A DNA stretch of 64,000 bases, from the NCBI RefSeq assembly GCF_028583425.1, contig NC_072807.1, positions 29,331,001 through 29,395,000 of the forward strand. The letters run 5' to 3'. The stretch comes from Eublepharis macularius. Lineage: Eukaryota > Chordata > Lepidosauria > Squamata > Eublepharidae. The translations under genes were made by a program, and so were the position numbers. Of the stretch, positions 3,401 to 55,700 are shown one piece after another; position 1 is the first letter of the stretch; every line of letters begins with the position of its first letter. Below the pieces are notes generated by a model that saw only the letters and a list, made by a program, of their open reading frames with translations, had not been told where the DNA came from and ran no database searches.

Positions 3401-6400
3401 AAATTACATAAAAGGATAATTCTATGCTAATGTCCCCTTTTATCCCACTTTCAGGTCGAAAGATTATTCTGCACTTCCCGCTAAAAGACTGTGGCATTTC
3501 CTAGTGAAACAAGAATTACTACAGGACATGTTTATTCGCTATACATTTGCCAAGAAAAGGAAGCAAAGTGAGGTACACAAAAGTCCTGGCAGACAATATT
3601 GACACATGACATGGGCCTTTTCGCGTCTTACCTTCTGCTGGAATATTGCGGAAGACAGCATCTTCGCGCACGAAATCGCACCAGGAAGATGCAATTTCGT
3701 GCAAAAATCCTGGATGACAAGTGTTTTCCTGGCGTGATCTCGCGCAAAGACGCTGTCTTCCATGATGTTCCGGCAGAAGGTAAGACATGTGGAAACGGAC
3801 GTGTTCTAAGAGTGCTCTTCCTTTACTACCTTTTTTCAAAAATGGCTGTTTTTCATGTGGATTATTTTATTTTAGCATTGTATTAAAATCAGCTTGCGGA
3901 TAGCATGGTATTATTTTGCATAAAGTATTTTTCCAGGGCAAGCATAGATGAACTTGGCAGGACATATTGTGTGGGCATGCATGTGTGTGTGTGCACATGC
4001 ACACGCATGTGTTTAAGCATGGGCGGCTTGATGTTATCAATTTGCTTGGTGTTATCAGCGCAAATAAGATCTCTAGTGCAAATGCAATGCTTTCTCCATG
4101 CACAATTTGAACATCTGGCCAGATGTATGCCTACAGCACTGGCCTAAACATTGGGTCAGATCGAGACTAAATTGGCTAAAAAAAACCCTTCCTCCTAGTG
4201 CAAAGTTTGTTTGTTTGTGTGTATTTTTCCTCGATTCATTTACTATGATGTACTTTTTTGTGTTCATCCAGGAGGCATTGTGTTCTCAGTGCTTCTGTTT
4301 AAGCGCTTGCCTGTTGTTTAGTAGACAAAAGGGTGGCGGGACCCACTATGCATTTGTCATGAGCAGACATAACTGGGTGGCCTTTTTAAAACTCTAGTTT
4401 TGGAACATTTTCATTCATTTTTCTTTTATATATTTGTTTGTGCATGTGTTGTGTTTCGTGTTTGTGGTTGTATGGTGTTTGTGTAGTCTGTAGAAGACCG
4501 TGAGGAGCAGGTCACACAAAACAGCGTAGCAGAAGATGAAAAAAACAAGGTAGTATATTTGCCTCCCAAGCGCTTCTGCGGGCCTCTCTCTTTCCTTTCT
4601 CTCTTATCTGTTGACAAGAAGACCTGTGGTCTTTGGCTGATTCCGCACACGTTGGATAATGCACTTTCAATGCACTTTATCAGTCGTTTGAGGTGGATTT
4701 TTTGTTCCGCACACAAAAAAATGCGTTCCAAATGATCTATAAAGAGGATTGGAAGTGCATTATCCAACGTGTGCGGAATCAGCCTCTGTAACATTTCTGG
4801 CCGGTACTGAACCTGTGAACTAATACTCAATAATCAGAGCCAGGCAAAGTGCTTTGGAGCACTAGAGCAGTTACCAGTTCGTGCGCTACATTTGAAATAT
4901 GAACCTTGTGGCTTCTGGAATGCCCAGGAGGGGTGCAAGAAGCCCTAAGGATCATTTTCATAAAGAATGCCACAGCTACTAAGCTTTTCTTGCATGCTTG
5001 GCTTGTAGCCTGTCTGTGGCACAGCAAAGCTTTCTGAGGCTCCCGTATTAAAACGTAGTATTGTAATTATATTTTGTAGGTTGAGGCAGAACTCGGCTAC
5101 CCAGGGGGAAAAGCAAAAATTATACACAAGGAGTCGGATATGATAATGGCATTTGCTATCAATAAGGTAAAGTTGCCCGATAGTTCACTGCTGGCCTTCC
5201 TCCACCCCACTCCTGGGTCTAGTGGGCACTAAGATAACCCACCGCCAAGCCCTCTCGAGCGGATACTTATCAAGGCAGCGTGGTCCCTGCATGTGGCTTC
5301 CTCTCCTGCTGCAGCTGCGGTGTCGCGTTCTCCATCAGCTCAAAAGGGAGGCAAGCGTAGCCACCAGCTCCTTAAATAGCCTTTGCCTCCCCTCCTCCCA
5401 TGGAGCACTTCTGTGTACACTGACGCTAGATGCCTGTACACACACCTCCCATACGCAGGCTGCCAGAAAACCCTGCCTTTCCCCCTCCTCCTCGGCTGGG
5501 GTAGATGGCCAGAGCAGCATTCTGATACCGCTTGTTGATGCACGGAGTCCTTGCCACAGGGATTTTAATTTCCACTCTTGCTTTTGTATCTCCGTTATGC
5601 AGGCCAACATAAATGAAATAGTTTTAGCTTCTACTCATGATGTTCAGGAACTGGACGTGTCAGCGCTGTTGTCTGCTCAGTCGTATATATGGATTGGGGA
5701 AGAATATGACCGAGAATCGAAAAGGTTGGCCGTTCTTACCTGGCAACTGTTTTTTTTAAACTGGAGACTTACAGATACCTAAAGTACGGATCTCTTACGT
5801 GATTTTGCAAGCATCTGTCCCCATTTCTGTCTTCTCCATGTCCAAATTCCCTCTTGTGGACTTTTTTCCCCCTCTATGAATTATAACCATGTTTTATATA
5901 TAAATGAATCTTGCTTTAGGCATTTGAGAACAAAGAAACATTTTCTCTGTCGTTTAGTTCTTTCAATTTACCCATCATTGGTCCAAGTATGGAACTCCGT
6001 CTTGCTGGAAACGTATAAAGTCCAAACTTGAGCATTATTTGGAAATTTCCATTTTGGCTTTGTGGAAATCGGAGTTTGAGGGGGAGAGAAATGGGGAATT
6101 TCAATGATACTTTAATGTAGGAAATTACTCTTCTATGTAATGAAGTCTATATGCTTTTAAATATGCATCCCAAGCATTGAAGAGGTAAATACAGATCTGA
6201 AGAAAATGGGTAATATCACACTTTTTCTGCTTTGGGGGGCAATGAGAAGCACCAGGGCAGTTGCTTGAATGCTTCAAATCAACCTTCTTGAAAACAAAAA
6301 TATTCTGTTTGTCTGTAGTGTCACATCAGCTATGGATGTGATAATAATAATAATAATAACAACTACAACATTCAATTTATATACTGCCCTTCAGGACGAC

Positions 6401-9400: not shown

Positions 9401-12400
9401 CTTTCCTTTGCATCTTGTAAAACTTTCACTTTCACTCGAGGCTTCTTGCCTGCCCAAACAAAATCTGATATTTTCCTCTGCCATTTTTCAAATTGTTTGG
9501 AGTCTCTGATGATTGGTATTGTCTATAGCAAAAACATTACTCTTGGTAACACATTCATCTTAACTGCTGCAATCCTGCCCAACCATGACAAATTCAATCT
9601 ATTCCATTTAATCAAGTCTCTCTCTATCTGAGTCCATAGTTTTTCATAATTGTTTTTGAATAGATCTATGTTCTTTGCAGTTAATTCGACTCCCAAATAT
9701 TTCACTTTACTTGTTACTTCACAATCCGTTGTTTCCATTAACAATTGTTGTTTCTGCTTAGTCATATTTTTGCATAATATCTTTGACTTCTTTTTGTTAA
9801 TGAAGAAACCTGCCAAGTCTCCAAACTCCTTGATCTTATCTATCACTCTTGGCATGTTCTCCAATGGGTCCTCTACAATTAACATTATGTCATCCGCAAA
9901 TGCTCTGACCTTGTATGAATAGTCCTTTATTTTTATTCCACGAATTTCATCATCTTGACGTATTTGTATCATCAGAATCTCCAATACTAAAATGAACAAC
10001 AATGGAGATAACGGGCAACCTTGTCTTGTTCCTTTACTTATCGTCAATTTCTTAGTCAATTCATCATTCACCACAATTGCTGCAGTCTGGTCTCTATAAA
10101 TTTCCTTAATTGCTCTGATGAATCTTTCTCCCAATTGTAGCTTTTCCATAGTGGCAAACATAAAGTCCCAGTTTAAATTGTCAAACGCTTTTTCAGCGTC
10201 AACAAAGAAGAAACCAACCTCTTTGTCACAACGCTTGTCATAATATTCAATAGCATTGATCACTGTCCTTAAGTTGTCTCTTATTTGTCTGTCTGGCAAA
10301 AAGCCTGCTTGTTCCTCCTCTATGACTTCCGAGAGCCACCCCTTCAATCTCTCCGCCAATATCTTCGCAAAAATTTTATAGTCATTGTTGAGTAGCGATA
10401 TAGGTCTATAATTTTTCACATTAGTCAGGTCTTGGCCCTCTTTTGGGATCAATGATATATTCGCTTCACTCCAAGTTTCTGGAATCCTTTGATCCCTTAA
10501 AACCCCATTCATCACCTCTTTTAGGAATGGTGCCAGTTCATTAGCCATTGTCTTATAGAATTTAGCCGTAAGTCCATCTGGCCCTGGCGCCTTTCCTAGA
10601 TTTGCAGATTGTATTGCCTTACTTATTTCCTCGTCAGTTACTTCACTATTCAACTTATTTCTCCAAGCTTCCGAGATTTCTGGAAGTTTGGTTTTCTCCA
10701 AATATGACGCTATTGATTCTTTGTTTACTTCTTTTTTATTATACAGCTTAGCGTAAAATTTATAAAAGGCTCTACTAATGGTAGCCTGCTCCAAATACGT
10801 TTTGTTATCTTCGCAAATTTTATTTATTATCTTCTTTTCCCTTTTCTTCTTCAATTGCCATGCCAGGTACTTCCCAGGTTTATTAGCACCCTCAAACGCT
10901 TTTTGATTCAGTCTTTTGAGATTCCACTCCAATTCTTTATTGCTCATTGCTGTTAGCTGTTCTTGAAGTATTTTAATTTCCTGGTATACCTTCTTTTTCC
11001 CTGGTCTCTTTTTTAGCTGTATTTCTTTGGCTTTTATTTTCTCCTCAATCTCTTGTCTTTTCTCCTCTTTCTTCTTTCTTGCTCTACCATTTAAGTCCAT
11101 TAGTATGCCCCTTACAACCGCCTTGTAAGCATCCCAAACTTTATTGGTTGGTACTTCTTTATTCACGTTGTATTGTATAAAAAACTTTGTCTCTCTTCTC
11201 AGTATTTCCATATTCTCTCTTTCCTGTAACAAGTCCTCATTTATTCTCCATGCTTTCCTTTTTCTCTTTTTTCCAAATTTCCACATAATTGGGTTGTGAT
11301 CTGAGCCTACCATAGGCATTATTTCTACCTCCTTAGTCCATAATGCTAAGTCTTTTGAGGCCCAGATCATATCAATTCTTGATAATGTAGAATGCCTTGC
11401 AGAATAAAAAGTAAACTGTCTGCTTTTAGGATATTCTCTCCTCCATACATCTTCAAGAGTCTCTTGTTGAATCAACTCAAAAAAAAGCTTTGGTAATAGT
11501 CCTCTTTTCTTTTGTGCCGTTGTAGTCTTTTTGTCTAGTTCCAAGTCTGTCACTCCATTGAAGTCTCCAGCAAGAATTATCTGGTCGTATGCAAGATCGT
11601 CTAAATGCTTCCTTAAATCCTCAAAGAAGCTTTCTTTTGCACCGTTAGGTGCATAAAGTCCGACTACCAACACTCTCTTTAAATTCCAAATACATTCCAC
11701 TGCTACAAATCTAGCTTCCACATCTCTCATAACAAATTTTGGCTGTAGCTCCTCTTTTATGTACAACACCACTCCTCTTTTTTTCTTGTTGGAGGCCGCT
11801 ACATATTCTTTGCCCAATTTTCCAGATTTTAAATATTTTACATCCTGCTTTCTGATATGGGTCTCTTGCAAACAAACAATGTCACATTTTTGTTTTAGTA
11901 GCCAGTGAAAAGTATTTTTCCTCTTATTCGGTGAGTTTAGTCCATTTACATTCCAAGATAATACTTTACACTCCATACTCATGATCTTGTTGGTAAGTCT
12001 TTTTCATTGTCCTTAATAAATCGCTCCATCTCTCGCTCAGATCTGATGCGTTTTTTGGCCCCTCCAAACTCAAAGGACACTCCTTCCGGTAACTCCCATC
12101 TGTACCTGATTTTCATGTCCTTCAAAATCTGAATTAGCACTTTATATTTTTTCCGGTCCAGTAACACTGATCTGGGCAGTTCCTTCATTATAATAATCGT
12201 CTTGCCATCAATCTCCAATGGATCTTGAAACTGTTTTGTCACAATCCTCTCTTTCATATTTCGTGTTATAAACTGCACAATCACATCTCTTGGTAGTTTC
12301 CTCTGGGTTGCTATTCTCGAATTCACACGGTATGCCACATCTAGGATAGCCACAACTTCCTCCTCCTCCTTCCCCAGGTACTCAGCCAACACCTCAGTCA

Positions 12401-18400: not shown

Positions 18401-19969
18401 AAATGTTTTATATGGAATGTTTTAAATGTTCTTAATGCTGTTATCCGCCCTGTGAGCAGGGAGGGTGGAATACAAATACGATAAAATAAAAATAAATAAA
18501 TAAATAACACCATTAGTCTTGGGCAGCTGAGTGAAGTGGCTCTCAAGTCAGCTGAGTGAAGTTCATCATTCACAAAAATTGTCCATTTGGGGGTTTCTCC
18601 CGCAGCCTTCGCTTGTCACGATAACGGTGCTACAGTCCTTCAGTATGCGCCAAAGCACCAGCTGCTGCTTTCTGGAGGCAGGAAAGGTTACATCTCCATC
18701 TTTGATATCAGACAGAGACAAGTCCTTCATACCTTCCAAGCGCATGACTCTGCTATTAAGGCCCTTTCCCTAGACACGTCGGAAGAATGTTTTTCTACCG
18801 GCTCGGCGGAAGGCAACATAAAGGTAAGGATGTCCAATAGCCCCGCCCCCCAAAAGGTTAGTCTGTACAAACGAGCAGTGCTTGTGATTTCTGAGACATC
18901 AGTTATTACGTGGGTGGTTAACTAAATGCTTTATAGTCTGTTAGAAAATGTGTTTGTGTGTGTCCTTAATTTTATGTTCCAAGTTTTAAGATAGAAAAGA
19001 AGGGGGCTGCACCAAGGCAAAACGAAGGGGTGGGGAGGCAAATGGAAGAGCCTTTTAAAAGAAATTTAAAGGAAATAATCTTTCAGTTTAAAGAAGTAAT
19101 CTTTTTGTGATTAGGAAACACGGAGTATATATTAATGTTCGTTTAGTTATCCATATAGTAAGCATTCGTTATGCATTGCGCTCTGAACATGCTCTGTGAA
19201 ATTGTCCTATCTTTTCATTATAAATAAGTGTTATCAATGTTTAAGGGGTTGTACTCATTATGTATTTTGTATTTCTTGATAGATCCCCCTGACGAAGCTG
19301 TTGCAAAATGCGTAGGGGTATATAATTATTAAAGGCTCTTCCCTTCGCACCATTTGCCTTTTCTAAGATGCCACATTGATTTTAAGATGCCACATTGATT
19401 TTTCTGGGTTTGGTTGCCCCATGTTTCAGAGTCCGGATTCACACAAGTCCTATACCTATAATATTGTGCATACAGAGGAATGGGAGACAGAATGTGCTGC
19501 CCCCACCCCCACCCAATACTCTTATGCACAATTGGCCCAGTGTGGGCAGAGCTCCTACGCAGCCCATACAGGTTTGTACATGTATAGGCAGTGTACCCAC
19601 CCTGGCGCATAAGTGCTGTTAGGGCCAGGGTATTAGGTCCCTCTACATGTGTACAATCAGTATACATGCACATTTATGCACACAGGATTATGGTTGGCTT
19701 TCCTCCACCCAGATAAATCTATTGACAGGACGCTTCTCTGCCATTCTCTCTCGCTCTAGGTGTGGAGGCTGACAGGCTATGGTTTAATCCACTCCTTTAA
19801 ACACGAGCATGCCAAGCAGTCTCTCTTCCGAAACCTCAGCGCTGGAGTCATGCAAATTGAAATGGCGCACGGCAATCGCACCTTCTCCTGTGGAGCGGAT
19901 GGCACCCTGAAAATGCGGGTGCTGCCCAACGCTTTCGGCATCCCTTCCAGCCTTTGTGACATGTTGTAG
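343..19969 (+). CDS. DMXL2: DMXL2 (rabconnectin-3 alpha), 3' part, 14 exons
   Basis: This is the C-terminal part (about 555 codons) of a very large WD40 protein that regulates V-ATPase assembly and binds synaptic-vesicle Rab3 regulators. Exons seen: 343-428, 1599-1800, 3455-3572, 4487-4549, 5080-5166, 5603-5724, 7034-7184, 14041-14101, 14224-14351, 15122-15199, 15319-15410, 15501-15553, 18606-18823, 19760-19969. All introns are GT-AG and the codon phases join without a break. The early exons carry the linker with SYIWIGEEYDRES; the last seven encode WD repeats (for example DGSVRMFEWTR, GEGFLSIWQV, NVCLWDT, GNIKVWRL, DGTLKMRVLPN). The 5' part of the gene lies left of the window. DMXL1 is a close paralogue; the neighbour GLDN, adjacent to DMXL2 in human 15q21.2, decides for DMXL2. 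The gene runs tail to tail with GLDN. No coding damage is visible. Confidence 0.95.
429..1598 (+). other. DMXL2 intron
   Basis: Pyrimidine-rich intron with the MITE at 1007-1124 and a run of 14 G at about 1368-1381. No conserved element is recognised otherwise. Confidence 0.7.
1007..1124. mobile_element. MITE, GAGCCAAGCTACAAG-type, 118 bp
   Basis: Near-perfect terminal inverted repeats of about 40 bases (GGGCCAAGCTACAAGTGACG and its complement) around a short centre. It is the same family as the outer element at 21780-22225 and related to 53021-53221. No clear target duplication is visible at this copy. Confidence 0.8.
1599..1800 (+). CDS. DMXL2: DMXL2 exon, DLPVKSPLGIS segment
   Basis: 202 bases. 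It begins by completing Asp and reads DLPVKSPLGISVIKTLENW, then a Pro/Asn-rich stretch (GPPPNYINTYFPEL) and an Ala-rich run. It ends inside a Lys codon at the donor GTATGA. The open frame runs on past the donor, but the join to 3455 restores the family sequence (NTPFK then SKDYSALPAKRLW), which fixes the exon end. Confidence 0.9.
2099..2290 (-). mobile_element. 5S-rRNA-derived SINE (5S-Sauria type), minus strand
   Basis: The minus strand reads a 5S-like internal promoter region (AGTACTTGGATGGGAGACCA), then GGCAATGGCAAGCCACCTCT-like sequence and the tail with CCATAAATCAGCTGCGACTTG, as in the RTE/Bov-B-like tails of squamate SINEs. The strand is set by the order 5S part then tail. Confidence 0.8.
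2290..2500 (-). repeat. Old interspersed repeat, probably CR1-like LINE 3' region
   Basis: Contains GGGTTAGACAGATTCATGG, AGAGGCAGCAAATCTCTGAA and GATCCGGCAAGGCTGTTCTT, phrases I recognise from a widespread reptile and bird repeat. The family assignment and strand are uncertain. Confidence 0.4.
3455..3572 (+). CDS. DMXL2: DMXL2 exon, KRLWHFLVKQE segment
   Basis: 118 bases after a TTTCAG acceptor; the donor is GTACAC. It encodes AKRLWHFLVKQELLQ and then a basic stretch, FAKKRKQSE, ending on a codon boundary. This segment is strongly conserved in the DMXL family. Confidence 0.92.
3613..3801. mobile_element. Diverged MITE, GGCCGTTTCCACAC-like family
   Basis: Imperfect inverted ends (CGTCTTACCTTCTGC and GCAGAAGGTAAGACATG, then GGAAACGG) and internal CGCG-rich arms like the copies at 33149-33257 and 42436-42596. 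More diverged than those. Confidence 0.6.
4487..4549 (+). CDS. DMXL2: DMXL2 short acidic exon (63 bases), possible cassette
   Basis: The 63 bases make exactly 21 codons between GTGTAG and GTAGTA, phase 0 on both sides, reading SVEDREEQVTQNSVAEDEKN plus Lys. Including or skipping it keeps the frame. It is less conserved in character than its neighbours (charged, polar, no hydrophobic core), and the acceptor tract is GT-rich rather than C/T-rich. A second AG at 4492-4493 would break the frame, which supports the start at 4487. Confidence 0.8.
4635..4784. mobile_element. MITE, GGCTGATTCCGCACACG ends, 150 bp
   Basis: Terminal inverted repeats of about 35 bases, GGCTGATTCCGCACACGTTG at the left and its complement at the right. 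It lies 85 bases downstream of DMXL2 exon 4487-4549. Partner of the fragment at 1-64. No exact target duplication. Confidence 0.8.
5080..5166 (+). CDS. DMXL2: DMXL2 exon, LGYPGGKAKIIHKESDM segment
   Basis: 87 bases (29 codons), phase 0 at both ends, acceptor TTTTGTAG and donor GTAAAG. It encodes VEAELGYPGGKAKIIHK followed by ESDMIMAFAINK, a highly conserved DMXL segment just before the WD40 region. Confidence 0.93.
5603..5724 (+). CDS. DMXL2: DMXL2 exon, LASTHDVQELDVS segment
   Basis: 122 bases after TTATGCAG; the donor is GTTGGC. It encodes ANINEIVLASTHDVQELDVS and then SYIWIGEEYDRES, and ends with two bases of a Ser codon. A longer open frame from 5222 is mostly intron reading through this exon. 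Confidence 0.93.
5725..7033 (+). other. DMXL2 intron
   Basis: Holds the SINE at 6338-6612; otherwise AT-rich with no recognised element. Confidence 0.6.
6338..6612 (-). mobile_element. tRNA-derived SINE (MIR/CORE-like), minus strand
   Basis: The minus strand starts with a tRNA-like head (AGCCAGTTTGGTGTAGGGGT, GAGAGCCAGGTTTGACTCC), has a central core (GCTGGGTGACCTTGGGTCAG) and ends in a LINE-like tail (CTGAAGGGCAGTATATAAAT) with an ATT microsatellite. Very similar to 45030-45296. Confidence 0.82.
7034..7184 (+). CDS. DMXL2: DMXL2 exon, Ser/Thr-rich linker
   Basis: 151 bases, acceptor TTTTCCAG and donor GTATGT. It encodes SSDDVDFRGSTTTLTQS and PSISTSSMPWLGSGQTSTG, a low-complexity Ser/Thr/Gln/Pro linker typical of the family. 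The intron that follows carries the 6.1-kb L1 insertion. Confidence 0.9.
7518..7536. repeat. L1 target-site duplication, 3' copy
   Basis: 19 bases, identical to 13684-13702, directly abutting the poly(A) tail of the L1. Together they mark the pre-insertion site in the DMXL2 intron. Confidence 0.93.
8221..11982 (-). pseudogene. L1 ORF2 (endonuclease and reverse transcriptase), one in-frame stop
   Basis: 1253 codons in one frame. The N-terminal APE-type endonuclease has LSWNVNGLNS, LQETHI, LAGDFNG and SDHNPI. The reverse transcriptase has FVDAEKAFD, GTRQGCPLSPLLF and the catalytic FADD. The C-terminal Cys/His motif is CWKCKKHEGSLYHMWWSC. A TAG at 9525-9523 divides the frame into 819 codons and a remainder that continues in the same frame; the family usually has Gln there, so a C-to-T change is likely. 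Endonuclease and RT lie before the stop; the C-terminal Cys motif lies after it. Confidence 0.92.
11979..12773 (-). CDS. L1 ORF1 protein (264 aa), intact
   Basis: This is the RNA-binding nucleic-acid chaperone of L1. Residues 1 to about 110 are a Lys/Glu-rich coiled coil (KKEWQSAIENLDKNLDKKLL). An RRM-like core begins near KQLRFRGLPEVEG, the L1 ORF1 hallmark, and the C-terminal domain includes RDVIVQFITRNMKERIV. It ends in TGA overlapping the ORF2 ATG as ATGA, so ORF2 is likely reached by termination-reinitiation. No damage is seen. Confidence 0.93.
   Translation of the reverse strand: MSKKEWQSAIENLDKNLDKKLLDMIKELKDTKLELIKEVKEVTQTVKSELSEVKKGMETIRSELQGTQQRVKTVEDAMENLADTQQTEMRLVKGRMSVAETKHMEKQLRFRGLPEVEGKSAQEQMTEVLAEYLGKEEEEVVAILDVAYRVNSRIATQRKLPRDVIVQFITRNMKERIVTKQFQDPLEIDGKTIIIMKELPRSVLLDRKKYKVLIQILKDMKIRYRWELPEGVSFEFGGAKKRIRSEREMERFIKDNEKDLPTRS
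13684..13702. repeat. L1 target-site duplication, 5' copy
   Basis: 19 bases, identical to 7518-7536. It abuts the first base of the L1 5' UTR, supporting a full-length rather than 5'-truncated insertion. Confidence 0.93.
14041..14101 (+). CDS. DMXL2: DMXL2 exon, LIKRNLNNVKRM segment
   Basis: 61 bases, acceptor GCATGCAG and donor GTAAGT. It encodes LIKRNLNNVKRMASHPVHQY, leading into the first blade of the C-terminal WD40 repeats. It ends with one base of the next Tyr codon. Confidence 0.93.
14224..14351 (+). CDS. DMXL2: DMXL2 exon, WD40 blade
   Basis: 128 bases, acceptor TTTCCCAG and donor GTCAGT. It encodes YLTGAQDGSVRMFEWTRPQQ and GNARVTRMYFNSQGNK. The DGSVRMFEW string is a typical WD40 strand-d signature. 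Only 122 bases of intron separate it from the preceding exon. Confidence 0.93.
14743..15053. mobile_element. hAT-like MITE with 8-bp target duplication, 311 bp
   Basis: Ends CAGGGCTTTTTTTC and GAAAAAAGCCCTG, flanked on both sides by ATTATGAC (14735-14742 and 15054-15061), as hAT transposons make. The interior contains inverted segments around GGCCCCGCCCCCTGATC. It ends 68 bases before a DMXL2 exon. Confidence 0.92.
15122..15199 (+). CDS. DMXL2: DMXL2 exon, WD40 blade
   Basis: 78 bases (26 codons, phase 0 both ends), acceptor TCTTGCAG and donor GTAAGC. It encodes CGVADGEGFLSIWQVNQT, the second half of a WD repeat. The following intron is only 119 bases. Confidence 0.93.
15319..15410 (+). CDS. 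DMXL2: DMXL2 exon, WD40 blade
   Basis: 92 bases, acceptor CTTGGCAG and donor GTGTGT. It encodes SWQCHSKTTSDFAFITSSS then VATSGQSNDN, the first part of a WD repeat finished in the next exon by NVCLWDT. Confidence 0.93.
15501..15553 (+). CDS. DMXL2: DMXL2 exon, end of WD40 blade (NVCLWDT)
   Basis: 53 bases, acceptor TCCTGCAG and donor GTAGGT. It encodes NVCLWDTLMSPVNNLIH with split codons at both ends. CLWDT is the WD dipeptide signature. The 3-kb intron that follows is full of repeats. Confidence 0.92.
15695..16030. repeat. 82-bp tandem repeat in DMXL2 intron
   Basis: Two nearly identical 82-base copies (15695-15776, 15777-15858), then a diverging third and shorter degenerate units to about 16030. 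Each unit is built of smaller blocks sharing GATGGAGAAAG and CTTCCAGTGGAGGATGG. Open frames through it are a by-product of the repeat. Confidence 0.88.
16178..16380. mobile_element. Palindromic repeat, 'GTTGGTCTGCAGTAG' family (Penelope-like terminus?)
   Basis: Two inverted arms: GTAGCTGTGTTGGTCTGCAG ... GTAAGCTTTCGAGAGTCAG on the left, CTCCAAAGCTTACACTCCG ... CTACTGGACTCAAATCCACC on the right. The minus strand of the left arm (16296-16268) reads CUGAAGA-A, a GGAAG/CUCUC-type hairpin, then GAAA. Confidence 0.6.
16925..17530 (-). mobile_element. tRNA-derived SINE split by a MITE
   Basis: SINE tail and core at 16925-17051 (ATTTATATCCCACATTTCTC, CCTCACAACAACC) and core plus tRNA-like head at 17429-17530 (GGCCCAAGGTCACC, CAAACCTGGGTCTTC). 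The MITE 17052-17428 sits between them. The order of events is SINE first, MITE later. Confidence 0.78.
17052..17428. mobile_element. MITE, GAGCTAAACTACAAG ends, 377 bp, inserted in a SINE
   Basis: Ends GAGCTAAACTACAAGATACA and the matching complement ending GTTTAGCTC, with 3-base target duplication TGA (17049-17051 and 17429-17431). Inner arms carry long inverted segments (AACTCATCTTCCCAGCTAAC-type). The end sequence is a variant of the GAGCCAAGCTACAAG family. A 3-base duplication fits PIF/Harbinger-like transposition. Confidence 0.85.
17564..17645. repeat. Two-copy 41-base tandem duplication
   Basis: GTTCCTCCAAGGACC begins at 17564 and again at 17605, each followed by the same CTGGCCTTCCCCG end, with two or three differences. 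Confidence 0.85.
17704..17905 (+). mobile_element. tRNA-derived SINE, second family, plus strand
   Basis: tRNA-like head with box-A-like TGGCTTAGTGGTGTAAAG and box-B-like GGATCAATCTCCAG, then a body ending GGTCCGACTCGATATGAAGC. The same family lies on the minus strand at 36996-37160 and 50712-50885. Confidence 0.65.
17960..18508 (+). mobile_element. L2/CR1-clade LINE 3' end, plus strand
   Basis: The plus strand encodes RAFSVLAPTWWNALSTKTRA, the C-terminal tail usual in L2/CR1-type reverse transcriptase ORFs. A 3' UTR follows, with ATCCGCCCTGTGAGCAGGG and an (AAAT)n tail at about 18482-18508. 5'-truncated. It ends about 98 bases before a DMXL2 exon. Confidence 0.7.
18606..18823 (+). CDS. DMXL2: DMXL2 exon, two WD40 blades
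   Basis: 218 bases, acceptor CTCCCGCAG and donor GTAAGG. It encodes ACHDNGATVLQYAPKHQ, QLLLSGGRKGYISIFDIRQR, then FQAHDSAIKALSLDTSEE and TGSAEGNIK. The HD, GG and FDIR spacing is that of successive WD40 repeats. Confidence 0.94.
19009..19365 (+). mobile_element. Palindromic insertion with hammerhead-like motif (tentative)
   Basis: Left segment GGCAAATGGAAGAGCCTTTT (about 19039-19058) is inverted relative to AAAGGCTCTTCCC ... ATTTGCC at the right end. At 19285-19318 the plus strand reads CCCCCUGACGA, A, GC-UGUU-GC, AAAA, then GUAGGGG, which pairs with CCCC. The boundaries are uncertain. Confidence 0.4.
19364..19402. repeat. Two-copy 19-base tandem duplication
   Basis: TAAGATGCCACATTGATTT occurs twice in direct succession, right after the end of the preceding insertion. 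Confidence 0.8.
19760..19969 (+). CDS. DMXL2: DMXL2 last exon and stop
   Basis: The acceptor is CTCGCTCTAG. It encodes VWRLTGYGLIHSFKHEHAKQ and GNRTFSCGADGTLKMRVLPN, ending FGIPSSLCDML and TAG at 19967-19969. It completes the last WD repeat; the VLPNAF tail is characteristic of the family's C terminus. Confidence 0.95.
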   Translation: MWRLTGYGLIHSFKHEHAKQSLFRNLSAGVMQIEMAHGNRTFSCGADGTLKMRVLPNAFGIPSSLCDML

Positions 19970-21779: not shown

Positions 21780-22225
21780 GAGAACCAAGCTACAAGTGAC
21801 GAATTACACTTGTCTGGCAAGTTAACAGAGAGCGGAACTACAAGTGACAAAAGGCACGGGTTGGACACTTGTCAGCTTCCCTCAAGTTTTGATGGGAAAT
21901 GTGGGCAGCTTGGCGGAATGTTGGACAAGTGACAGTTGAAAAGTCCATTGGACAGCAGTCGGAGAGCCAAACTGCAAGACTAGGATGCCTACATTTCCCA
22001 TCAAAACTTGAGGGAAGCTGACAAGTGTCCAACCTGTGCCTTTTGTCACTTGTAGTTCCGCTCAGACTCACGTGTATTCCTTCCTGTTCACTTGCCCTCC
22101 ACTTGCGCTCCACTTGATCACGTGATCAAGTGGAGCGCAAGTGGAGGGCAAGTGAACAGGGAGAAATACACGTGAGTCTGTTCACTTGCCAGGCAAGTGT
22201 AATTCGTCACTTGTAGCTTGGCTTT
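21780..22225. mobile_element. MITE (CCAAGCTACAAG family), outer member of a nest
   Basis: Outer ends CCAAGCTACAAGTGACGAAT and its complement, with a palindromic centre around CTTGATCACGTGATCAAG near 22110-22135. Interrupted by a second MITE at 21830-22063. The family is that of 1007-1124. Confidence 0.82.
21830..22063. mobile_element. MITE nested inside another MITE, 234 bp
   Basis: Ends GAGCGGAACTACAAGTGAC and complement, inner arms with CTTCCCTCAAGTTTTGATGG inverted. Target duplication AGA at 21827-21829 and 22064-22066. Closely like 53021-53221 in its arms. Confidence 0.85.
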
Positions 22226-23984: not shown

Positions 23985-24480
23985 CTGTGACTACAAGTAA
24001 CCCCATTGGCCTAAAAAAACCCATGGATTACCTAGACGTTTTGGAGAATGACCGCAAGTAACCCGAATGACCTAGAGTAACCCCAATGCTAATGAGAAAT
24101 TTGGGAGAATGACCGCAAGTAACCCCAATGACCTAGAGTAACCCCAGTGCTAATTGGAAATTGCAGAGAATGGCCTCTAGTAACCCTGATGACCTAGATT
24201 AACCCCAGTGCTTATTGGAAAGTTCAGAGAATGACTTCTAGTAACCCCAATGACCTAGAGTAACCCCAGTGCTAACTGGAAATTTCAGAGAATGAACTCT
24301 AGTAACCCCAGTGCTTATTGGAAATTTCAGAGAATGACCTCTAGTAACCCCGATGACCTAGAGTAACCCCAGTGCTAATTGGAAATTGCAGAGAATGACC
24401 TCTAGTAATCCCAGTGACCTACAGTAACCCCAATGCTAATTAGAGATTTTGGAGAATGGCCTCAAATAATCCCTAGACTA
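23985..24480. repeat. 61-bp minisatellite, about 7-8 copies
   Basis: Anchors (CCTAGA) recur at 24071, 24132, 24193, 24254, 24357 and 24418 (CCTACA), so the period is 61 with one shortened step. Each unit has two AGTAACCCC half-blocks joined by GGAAATTGCAGAGAATG-type sequence. Units differ by several bases. It lies between the two genes. Confidence 0.9.
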
Positions 24481-52700: not shown

Positions 52701-55700
52701 AAAACCTGAAAACCTCCAGCCAGCATCTGGCTTTCATATTCACCAGAGAGAACAAGCAGTTCCCCCAGAGTTCTGGGCGAGTTACGCATGCCAGGAGAGG
52801 AGCCCTCGACTGCTGCTTGTTTTGAAGTGGAGCTCACATTCCTCCCAAAGCAAAACAAGTTACTAGACTTACAGAGGCACCCCTCACTTAGGAACAAAGG
52901 CACACATGATGAGCCCAGGGCTACAGAGATCTATGGCCACAAGGGGGCGTCCTGCACCCCGCCACTGGCTCCAACACTAAAAGAAGCATTCCAAATCAAG
53001 AGAATCTCCATGTTTCTTAGAGCCAAGCTACAAGTGACGCCTGACACAGGTTGGACACTGGTCAGCTTCCCTCAAGTTTTGATGGGAAATGTAGGCATTC
53101 TGGTCTTGCAGCTGTAATGGAGAGCCAAGCTGTAAAACCAGGACACCTACATTTCCCATCAAAACTTGAGGGAAGCTGACAAGTGTCCAACCTGTGTAAG
53201 GCGTCACTTGTAGCTTGGCTCTTAGAGCTACTATGCTCTGAGCTCCTCACCTCAGAGACCCGCTTGGGAGGGGGGACTACATGAAAACAATACAGCAAGA
53301 TGTATACACTCGGACAACTGTCTTTTATTTTATTTTCTGTGTACGGGATTACATGATTTATCTGTTAGGGCCTTAATACAATTCGTAGGTGCGGTGGTTG
53401 AAAGACAACAAACATTCCCCCATTTTGATAGTTTCCGGTGAGTAGCCATGTTGGTCTGCAGTCGAAGAGCAAGATTTGAGTCCAACAGCACCTCAAAGAC
53501 CAACCAGATTTCCCAGGTATGAGCTTCTGACAGTCAAAGCTCCCTGAAGCCCATATCTTGAAAACCTGGTTGGTCTTTAAGGTGCTATTGGACCCAGATG
53601 TTATTCCCCCATTTAGTTTCTGGGAAGGGTTTCAATTCTCAGCTTTTCACTGTTGGCTTTGTAGATCAGGTTATACCATGTGCATAGGCTATATACCTTT
53701 TACGCACAGTCGATGTGGCTTAAGGAGCCTGCCATACATGACAAAAACAGGAGACAGATAATGATGCCTGGCAAGTACAGGAAGCTCCTCAATGGGCTTT
53801 AATGGCAGTGGCGAAGGAGCCCCGTCAGGGCTTGGGAGAGAAAACCCTTAACAGCTGGAAACCGAGTGAGCCAAAGAAAGAAGAAGGTTTGGGTTTTGAT
53901 GCGAAAGAGCTCAAAGGAGGGAAGGCAGGTGGCAGAAGCAAAGAAATACACTTGTAAAATAAAGGAATAAACTCAGACAACCTTTCTTTGTCATGAACCT
54001 GCTTAGGACGACCCATACCTTTTCGTTTATTTATATAATTTGTAACTATCAAGAGCCCCGTGGCGCAGAGTGGTAAGCTGCAGTACTGCAGCCCAAGCTC
54101 TGCTCACGACCTGAGTTCGATCCTGGTGGAAGCCGGGTTCAGGTAGCCGGCTCAAGCTTGACTCAGCCTTCCATCCTTCCGAGGTCAGTAAAATGAGTAC
54201 CCAGTTTCCTGGGGGTAAAGTGTAGATGACTGGGGAAGGCAATGGCAAACCACCCCGTAACAAGTCTGCCAAGAAAATGTCGTGATGCGACGTCCCCCCC
54301 ATGGGTCAGTAATGACTCGGTGCTTGCACAGGGGACTACCTTTACCTTTTTAACTATCAAGAAAATAATTCAAACTTCTACTTGGTCCTCTCCATTTTTT
54401 ACAGAGATAAAAACCAGCAAGCGTCACAAGTCTCTGAGAATCTTCTACGTCTACATAAATCCACAGACCAGTGGCCAGGAACATTTTAAGTCATGGCTTC
54501 AACAGTCTGCCTATAAGACGGGACAGGTTCCAATCAAAGCTATATAATGAGGGAAACCCCAGGAACCTCACATTTGACAAAAATATATCAAACAACTTTA
54601 ATCACAGATATCCATCTCATTCTAAAAGAATACAAATATACAAATCCAATTCATGTGATAATATACAATTCATACAATTCATACAATAACCCACACTATA
54701 TATGAACACAGCTGAAGTCCATACAATAGGACTAGGCTCGAGACCCGTGTAAGTCCAGTATATAAGTATCTATAAGTAGCTAATGCACCAATAGCGAGTC
54801 CCAAGTGGCTGTAATTCCTGTGTAAATTTCAAAACGACTGCTGCCACGCTACGCGTGTAGGAGCCCCGGTCGGGACTCTCAACGAATGGTGCGTAAATTT
54901 CAAAGCGGCTGGATCCGCGCTGAAGGTGCCAGAGCCCCCTCTGGGTCTCCCGGCAGATGGCAACGAGCCCGCCAGCTACAAATGCTCGTTTCGGAAACCC
55001 TTCTTCTTGGCCACCTTATAATCATAACAGTCAAAAGCTCAGTTTTCCGGTGGGTCAGTCTGTGCCGACACTTTCACTCCTTAGTCAACGCTAATTACAA
55101 GCTTGTAATTAGCGTTGACTAAGGAGTGAAAGTGTCGGCACAGACTGACCCACCGGAAAACTGAGCTTTTGACTGTTATGATTATAAGGTGGCCAAGAAG
55201 AAGGGTTTCCGAAACGAGCATTTGTAGCTGGCGGGCTCGTTGCCATCTGCCGGGAGACCCAGAGGGGGCTCTGGCACCTTCAGCGCGGATCCAGCCGCTT
55301 TGAAATTTACGCACCATTCGTTGAGAGTCCCGACCGGGGCTCCTACACGCGTAGCGTGGCAGCAGTCGTTTTGAAATTTACACAGGAATTACAGCCACTT
55401 GGGACTCGCTATTGGTGCATTAGCTACTTATAGATACTTATATACTGGACTTACACGGGTCTCGAGCCTAGTCCTATTGTATGGACTTCAGCTGTGTTCA
55501 TATATAGTGTGGGTTATTGTATGAATTGTATGAATTGTATATTATCACATGAATTGGATTTGTATATTTGTATTCTTTTAGAATGAGATGGATATCTGTG
55601 ATTAAAGTTGTTTGATATATTTTTGTCAAATGTGAGGTTCCTGGGGTTTCCCTCATTATATAGCTTCAACAGTCTGCCAGCACCGTGTTCAGCGAACCAT

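Follow-up and report, generated by a model that had tools for sequence, protein, structure and literature searches.

The longest perfect palindrome in a 64,000-nucleotide stretch of the Eublepharis macularius genome (C18:29331001-29395000, in an assembly of 2.24 Gb and 72 contigs; hereafter the window) consists, as judged by homology, of two pLTRs (leader copies) of a Penelope-like element (PLE) joined head to head, an insertion that was probably made by priming on both target strands with a sense, spliced mRNA as the template. A search of the whole window places it at 54537-55666, with 565-bp arms that show 0 mismatches and meet without spacer or loop at 55101/55102; the symmetry ends immediately past base 565, and the second-longest perfect palindrome in the window, one of 78 bp at 22083-22160, has 39-bp arms. 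The insertion is bracketed by a 16-bp target duplication, GCTTCAACAGTCTGCC, found in the window solely as a left copy at 54496-54511 and a right copy at 55663-55678. The first 4 bases of the right copy (GCTT) belong to the palindrome too; since the palindrome thus extends 4 bases into that copy, the inserted arms are 561 bp long and the insert spans 54512-55662. At its left end lies an unmirrored piece of 25 nt (54512-54536), or 29 nt if the four bases common with the duplication are included. The preliminary description, which had reported mismatch-free, loop-free 565-base arms, a 16-base duplication, 25 unmirrored bases on the left and the same insert limits, is borne out in these respects by the palindrome search and the coordinates. 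A match of 565 bases is beyond chance and, with the recurrence of the head-to-head layout elsewhere in the genome, confirms the observation. The arms hold no frame above about 100 codons, and no poly-A was found at either insert end.

Searching the genome with one arm, and scoring 40 of the 262 candidates, recovered at least 78 matches, several arranged as head-to-head pairs; the check suggested earlier, for further copies with the same end but different flanks, was thus positive. At one of these loci (L021), arm sequence flanks a 1006-aa frame on both sides in direct order. This frame matches RVT_1 (2.3e-11) and GIY-YIG (2.5e-4; 21.7 bits, slightly under the Pfam cut-off of 22.6), and in a sister family a 939-aa frame (L071) matches RVT_1 (3.6e-11) and GIY-YIG (24.9 bits; cut-off 22.6), both above cut-off. 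The GIY-YIG domain is C-terminal and sits in the same frame as the RT in L071, and likewise in L021 with its just sub-cut-off score, while the pLTRs around the ORF are direct in L021 and inverted in L071. EN-containing PLEs are described in passages of PMC3846280 and PMC11167929 as combining an RT and a GIY-YIG domain with pseudo-LTRs; the frame with RT and GIY-YIG in the relatives, with arm sequence around the ORF, thus identifies the element as an EN-containing PLE. A PDB sequence search with the ORF gave no match, and NCBIfam returned three reverse-transcriptase matches far under cut-off. The insert itself, which holds neither promoter nor ORF, was probably dead on arrival. Several features of the relatives deserve record in their own right. 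L021 has a 257-aa frame (5548-6321, plus strand) that by eye is like the GIY-YIG part of another PLE family and gave no match in Pfam. L071 (C5:110751400-110756200) has 1034-bp inverted arms, 100% identical, around its 939-aa frame, with the intron kept and a 17-bp target duplication. L026, L036, L037 and L038 carry leader positions 138-222 once more, a minisatellite-like expansion that marks them as a subfamily. The PLE copies at C3:4195385 (L052) and C3:4224204 (L051), separated by 29 kb, are near-identical and have a common 3' flank, possibly through a local duplication.

With the reverse complement of L021 1151-5460 as the reference (R), both window arms lack R3681-3760, an 80-nt stretch with GT-AG limits (GTAAGT..TTTACAG) that is present in relatives. 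The arms thus appear to be spliced PLE leaders, the left one (54541-55101, minus strand) read outward with its exon-exon junction at 55023/55024, and the right one (55102-55662, plus strand) with its junction at 55179/55180, splicing being deduced from the genomic copies. A leader-start search, in which 26 of 26 candidates were scored, gave 28 matches, namely 27 scorable ones and a fragment (L066, at the same locus as L058), which was left out before counting, as was L051, a near-copy of L032 29 kb away. Promoter side and intron occur together in 17 of the 27, a count in which one insertion on C17 figures with both its arms and C3 with two copies lying 29 kb from each other; the other 10 have neither, end at the splice donor and represent 9 insertions, both window arms being counted. 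Fisher's exact test on matches gives 1e-7 for this association, a value that is over-optimistic, as the copies are related. The donor is preserved in 17 of 17 unspliced matches (GTAAGT in 16, GTGAGT in L057), a fitting AG acceptor is found by pattern in all of them except L057 (16/17), and one exon-exon join is common to the spliced copies, including the diverged L064 and L065. A second leader search (40 of 232 candidates scored) displays the same promoter and intron split among the matches listed and extends the spliced set by one insertion on C1 and one on C3, each cut inside exon 1; diverged matches on C7, C9 and C6 (77-82% identity) were classed neither as spliced nor as unspliced. Since the intron is missing from the arms, an RNA step is needed, and the direction of splicing bears on which RNA it was. 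Passages of PMC3846280 propose antisense-RNA self-priming for rotifer PLEs to account for head-to-head palindromes together with intron retention; they favour this route while leaving the question open, and do not exclude an unspliced sense template. Here, however, splicing of the arms obeys GT-AG when they are read as sense, and the arms stop at the start site of the sense RNA, whereas an antisense RNA would retain the intron, a prediction already contradicted by the window copy. Self-priming of this kind could still suit pairs that keep the intron, L024 and L071 among them, but as the origin of the present insert we regard it as highly improbable.

The spliced copies also tend to begin at the same place. 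Seven of the 10 spliced matches, from 6 insertions with the window included, begin at R3598-3602, and the others at R3592 (L064), R3633 and R3648; besides the window, five insertions begin within 4 nt of its centre start. The R3592 start is blurred by chance matches and is probably a chance extension, the same locus viewed as L028 having clear leader from about R3602. A TATA box, TATATAAAGG, begins at R3568, 30 nt before R3598. These positions point to a transcription start at about R3596-3602, where the cDNAs would have run off, so that the two leader starts that meet at the palindrome centre (55101-55102), sharing at most GC, would correspond to mRNA 5' ends. A hammerhead cut as the source of the leader 5' end was considered and is unsupported, there being no Rfam match to such a ribozyme and no core pattern in the leader; in L021 the core pattern has 2 matches against an expectation of 0.61, of which one falls in the ORF and the other beyond the element. 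A hammerhead motif is present in the pLTR of many PLEs but is not obligatory for every PLE. Separately, GGCCAAGAAGAAGGGTTTCCGAAACGAGC (window 55191-55219, and L069) is strongly conserved across both PLE families and resembles a broken hammerhead core in which CUGANGA is absent. The sister family offers a comparable picture: its unspliced copies L071, L078, L080 and L081 carry GTAAGT..GACAG at the place of the intron and a TATA-like box upstream, while L082 has a degenerate donor. Another sister-family locus, L076 (C5:153245700-153247600), holds at about 485-1466 an 861-bp palindrome of 99% identity, centred on 5 bases and flanked by a 15-bp target duplication; both arms are spliced, one reaching the homologous start CCTGCTTGG and the other ending a few bases short.

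The outer ends of the arms are likewise discrete. The left arm continues on the minus strand through 54512-54540, which matches L021 between leader and ORF, i.e. the region preceding the ORF in the full element, and ends at R517; by this comparison the unmirrored bases are PLE tail, that is, they mark a second reverse-transcription start site. Across the copies, outer arm ends fall at R481-501 (site A) or R513-529 (site B), where BLAST ends may overrun by a few bases, the exceptions being R455 (L029) and the rearranged L030. In the window the B end is R517 and the A end, on the tail-less right arm, is R488 plus the GCTT common with the duplication, which is also what follows site A in the element. 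Fifteen head-to-head insertions were resolved among those that surfaced in the genome searches, a set that is not a census: the window, L022-L029, L039, L040 and L053/L070 in family 1, and L071, L076 and L078 in family 2. L030 was left out as rearranged, with its left end at R3646 and a 7-base duplication only. All 15 have target duplications of 11-17 bp and a tail on one arm only, in keeping with the 30-40-nt tail that EN-containing PLEs may carry on one inverted pLTR, the three family-2 pairs being judged by eye on homologous sequence; 13 of the 15 combine an A end with a B end, and 2 (L029 and L076) combine a B end with an internal one. Perfect palindromes are a known form of assembly or read artefact, arising from a folded-back read, but here the mirror halts at the element's own ends within the target duplication, the tail is one-sided, and 14 other loci from two PLE families have the same layout with their own duplications; an artefact is therefore barely credible, and the earlier argument from asymmetry for a real insertion is upheld. 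Single copies end at A in 10 of 15 cases and at B in 5, counts in which partner arms outside the loci may be missed, and a clear target duplication was seen in L037 only, of 10 viewed (two run off the locus). Were ends chosen independently, 13 mixed pairs of 13 would have a probability of about 3e-5 to 1e-4. According to passages of PMC11167929, the start site used in vitro by a purified Anolis PLE is equal for the top and the bottom strand; the rule of one A and one B end may thus depend on both strands acting within a single event, or may not survive a larger sample.

The central junction of the window occurs once in the genome, no further occurrence being found with up to 2 mismatches allowed, and the 12 family-1 pairs compared have 12 different junctions, with an overlap of 2-8 bases in 4 and 2-39 unplaced bases in 8. 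End joining would fit this pattern and general microhomology would not. The AAGCTT at the centre was considered as a 6-base microhomology and set aside, as other copies show that at most GC can be common; at the junctions of L023 and L028, short stretches from the leader start lie in antisense, pointing to more complex centres. These data weigh on the possibility that the insert derives from a palindrome lying ready-made at another locus and copied through its transcript, or that DNA was rearranged without an RNA step. Inverted copies are indeed common in the family, but a ready-made source does not sit with a junction that is found once and differs between pairs, nor a rearrangement with a missing intron that needs RNA, and we give either version very little credence. 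Of the earlier proposal that the element was inserted as an inverted dimer, the insertion thus stands, while nothing points to a ready-made dimer.

The internal make-up of the arms is pertinent to a further route, in which one target strand alone is primed, the cDNA folds at the mRNA 5' end and copies itself, and the resulting hairpin is joined to the other target end. Such a snap-back would likewise yield head-to-head arms meeting at the mRNA start, it fits 4 of the 14 unequal pairs (L022, L027, L029 and L078), and the 5-base centre of L076, flanked by CC/GG, is a possible fold-back loop. However, the window centre has zero loop bases, and the discrete end of the tail-less arms is left without a reason. 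Moreover, a copy cannot hold what its template lacks, yet in 10 of the 14 unequal pairs (L023, L024, L025, L026, L028, L039, L040, L070, L071 and L076) each arm has element sequence that the other lacks, inner in one and tail in the other, so that neither is a complete copy. Long palindromes often lose inner parts by deletion, and a later inner deletion in one of two once-equal arms could mimic such mutually private sequence; all told, we consider snap-back unlikely.

Arm-to-arm comparison shows the partner arm to be the nearest relative of both arms in 5 of 7 pairs, whereas L023 and L024 each have an arm that lies closer to a different locus. The window arms differ at 0 of 561 positions, and the nearest other copy compared differs from both at 6 of about 331; both arms thus come from the same source. 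Taking rates of 0.5-1.5e-9 per site and year, the insertion would be at most 1.8-5.3 million years old (95% upper bound). The preliminary description had offered extreme youth or gene conversion to explain the perfect arms: a fairly recent origin holds, and conversion is unneeded, since zero differences over 561 bp amount to a bound of a few million years.

We therefore favour, as the probable origin of the insert, priming on both target strands. The cuts in the two target strands would have been staggered by 16 nt. Priming by the top-strand 3' end (..GTCTGCC) at site B would have given the left arm with its tail; the bottom strand would have primed from its own 3' end (..TGAAGC) at site A, which lies some 29 nt closer to the RNA 5' end, perhaps aided by a 4-nt match to GCUU, and would have given the tail-less right arm. 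With a sense, spliced mRNA as the template, both cDNAs could reach the mRNA 5' end as a common stopping place, after which the two like cDNA ends would be joined head to head and gap-filling repair would produce the target duplication. The identity of the element, its target duplication, the absent intron, the recurring 5' ends, the two discrete start sites and the unique junction can be read in the sequence, whereas the order of the cuts, the run-off at the capped end, the manner of end joining and the use of one RNA or of two are steps that we infer from the products. We have lowered our confidence slightly, because junction overlaps are not general and later deletions are possible; the central overlap here is only 2 bases, and the target is not AT-rich or ATT-containing, unlike the cuts that an Anolis PLE is stated in passages of PMC11167929 to prefer in vitro.

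The proposed route has an analogue among L1 elements. In L1 twin priming, two target 3' ends prime on the element RNA and the cDNAs join in inverted order within one duplication. There the cDNAs come from different parts of the RNA, whereas here they come from the same stretch, so that the arms mirror each other; features of L1 type, such as a non-overlapping inverted 5' part and a poly-A end, are absent, as the arms overlap fully and there is no poly-A. Among PLEs, passages of PMC3846280 describe EN-containing Penelope elements of Adineta vaga with inverted head-to-head pLTRs, palindromes at the junction, target duplications of 8-10 bp and a tail of about 31 bp that one inverted pLTR may carry. 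Head-to-head pLTRs, junction palindrome, one-sided tail and target duplication are alike in the gecko; the duplications are 11-17 bp in the 15 gecko pairs as against 8-10 bp, and the window copy differs in being without an ORF, with both arms spliced and meeting exactly at the inferred mRNA start. As to biochemistry, the purified Anolis carolinensis Poseidon element (PAc) cuts and extends both strands and begins reverse transcription at two adjacent internal, tail-delimiting sites near the ORF start, in passages of PMC11167929, much as we propose. PAc has a hammerhead ribozyme, whereas no intact core was found here, and in vitro its start site does not differ between the strands, whereas here A and B lie on opposite arms; a spliced template or a head-to-head product is not mentioned in those passages.

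Inverted pLTRs, tails and duplications (passages of PMC3846280) and two-strand extension from two internal sites in vitro (passages of PMC11167929) are thus already known for PLEs, and the object in the window is a known kind of element in an unusually clean product. Spliced, start-to-start PLE palindromes were not found in the parts of the openly accessible literature covered, and the template and start-site evidence given here addresses a question open since 2013. It is conceivable, at odds that we would put a little short of even, that in vivo PLE insertion is generally two-ended on sense mRNA, with sites A and B available on each RNA and used on different strands, so that head-to-head insertions have one end of each kind, and that the cap-proximal intron is removed ahead of reverse transcription. 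Leader-only copies would then be spliced, while promoter-bearing ones, derived from distal leader repeats of a longer RNA, would keep the intron. If so, a two-ended reading would replace antisense self-priming and explain both why PLEs form head-to-head palindromes and why they seem to retain introns. The genome, at any rate, keeps products that resemble the outcome of copying a spliced sense leader as far as its 5' end on either target strand, with two start sites of the sort observed in vitro (passages of PMC11167929), and two run-off cDNAs of the same RNA with their ends joined would account simply for a palindrome without spacer. Read-through of such inserts, should it occur, would yield long perfect hairpin RNA; in this regard, passages of PMC3136932 suggest that siRNAs in Drosophila virilis come from double-stranded Penelope transcripts of long inverted repeats.

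A comparison of the palindrome with Rfam gave 12 matches (10 to microRNA precursors and 2 to a bacterial sRNA), all central and below the gathering score, which we discarded because a perfect hairpin yields such matches. Folding one arm as RNA revealed nothing unusual (z 0.45), and a viral-contig scan with a 25-base motif had no match. The insert adjoins a SINE, which we take to be of the Sauria type. Elsewhere the window has a LINE reverse transcriptase (9526-12003), a WD40 exon (18560-18922) and a tandem array (24044-24473) whose 61-bp unit is rich in AGTAACCCC.
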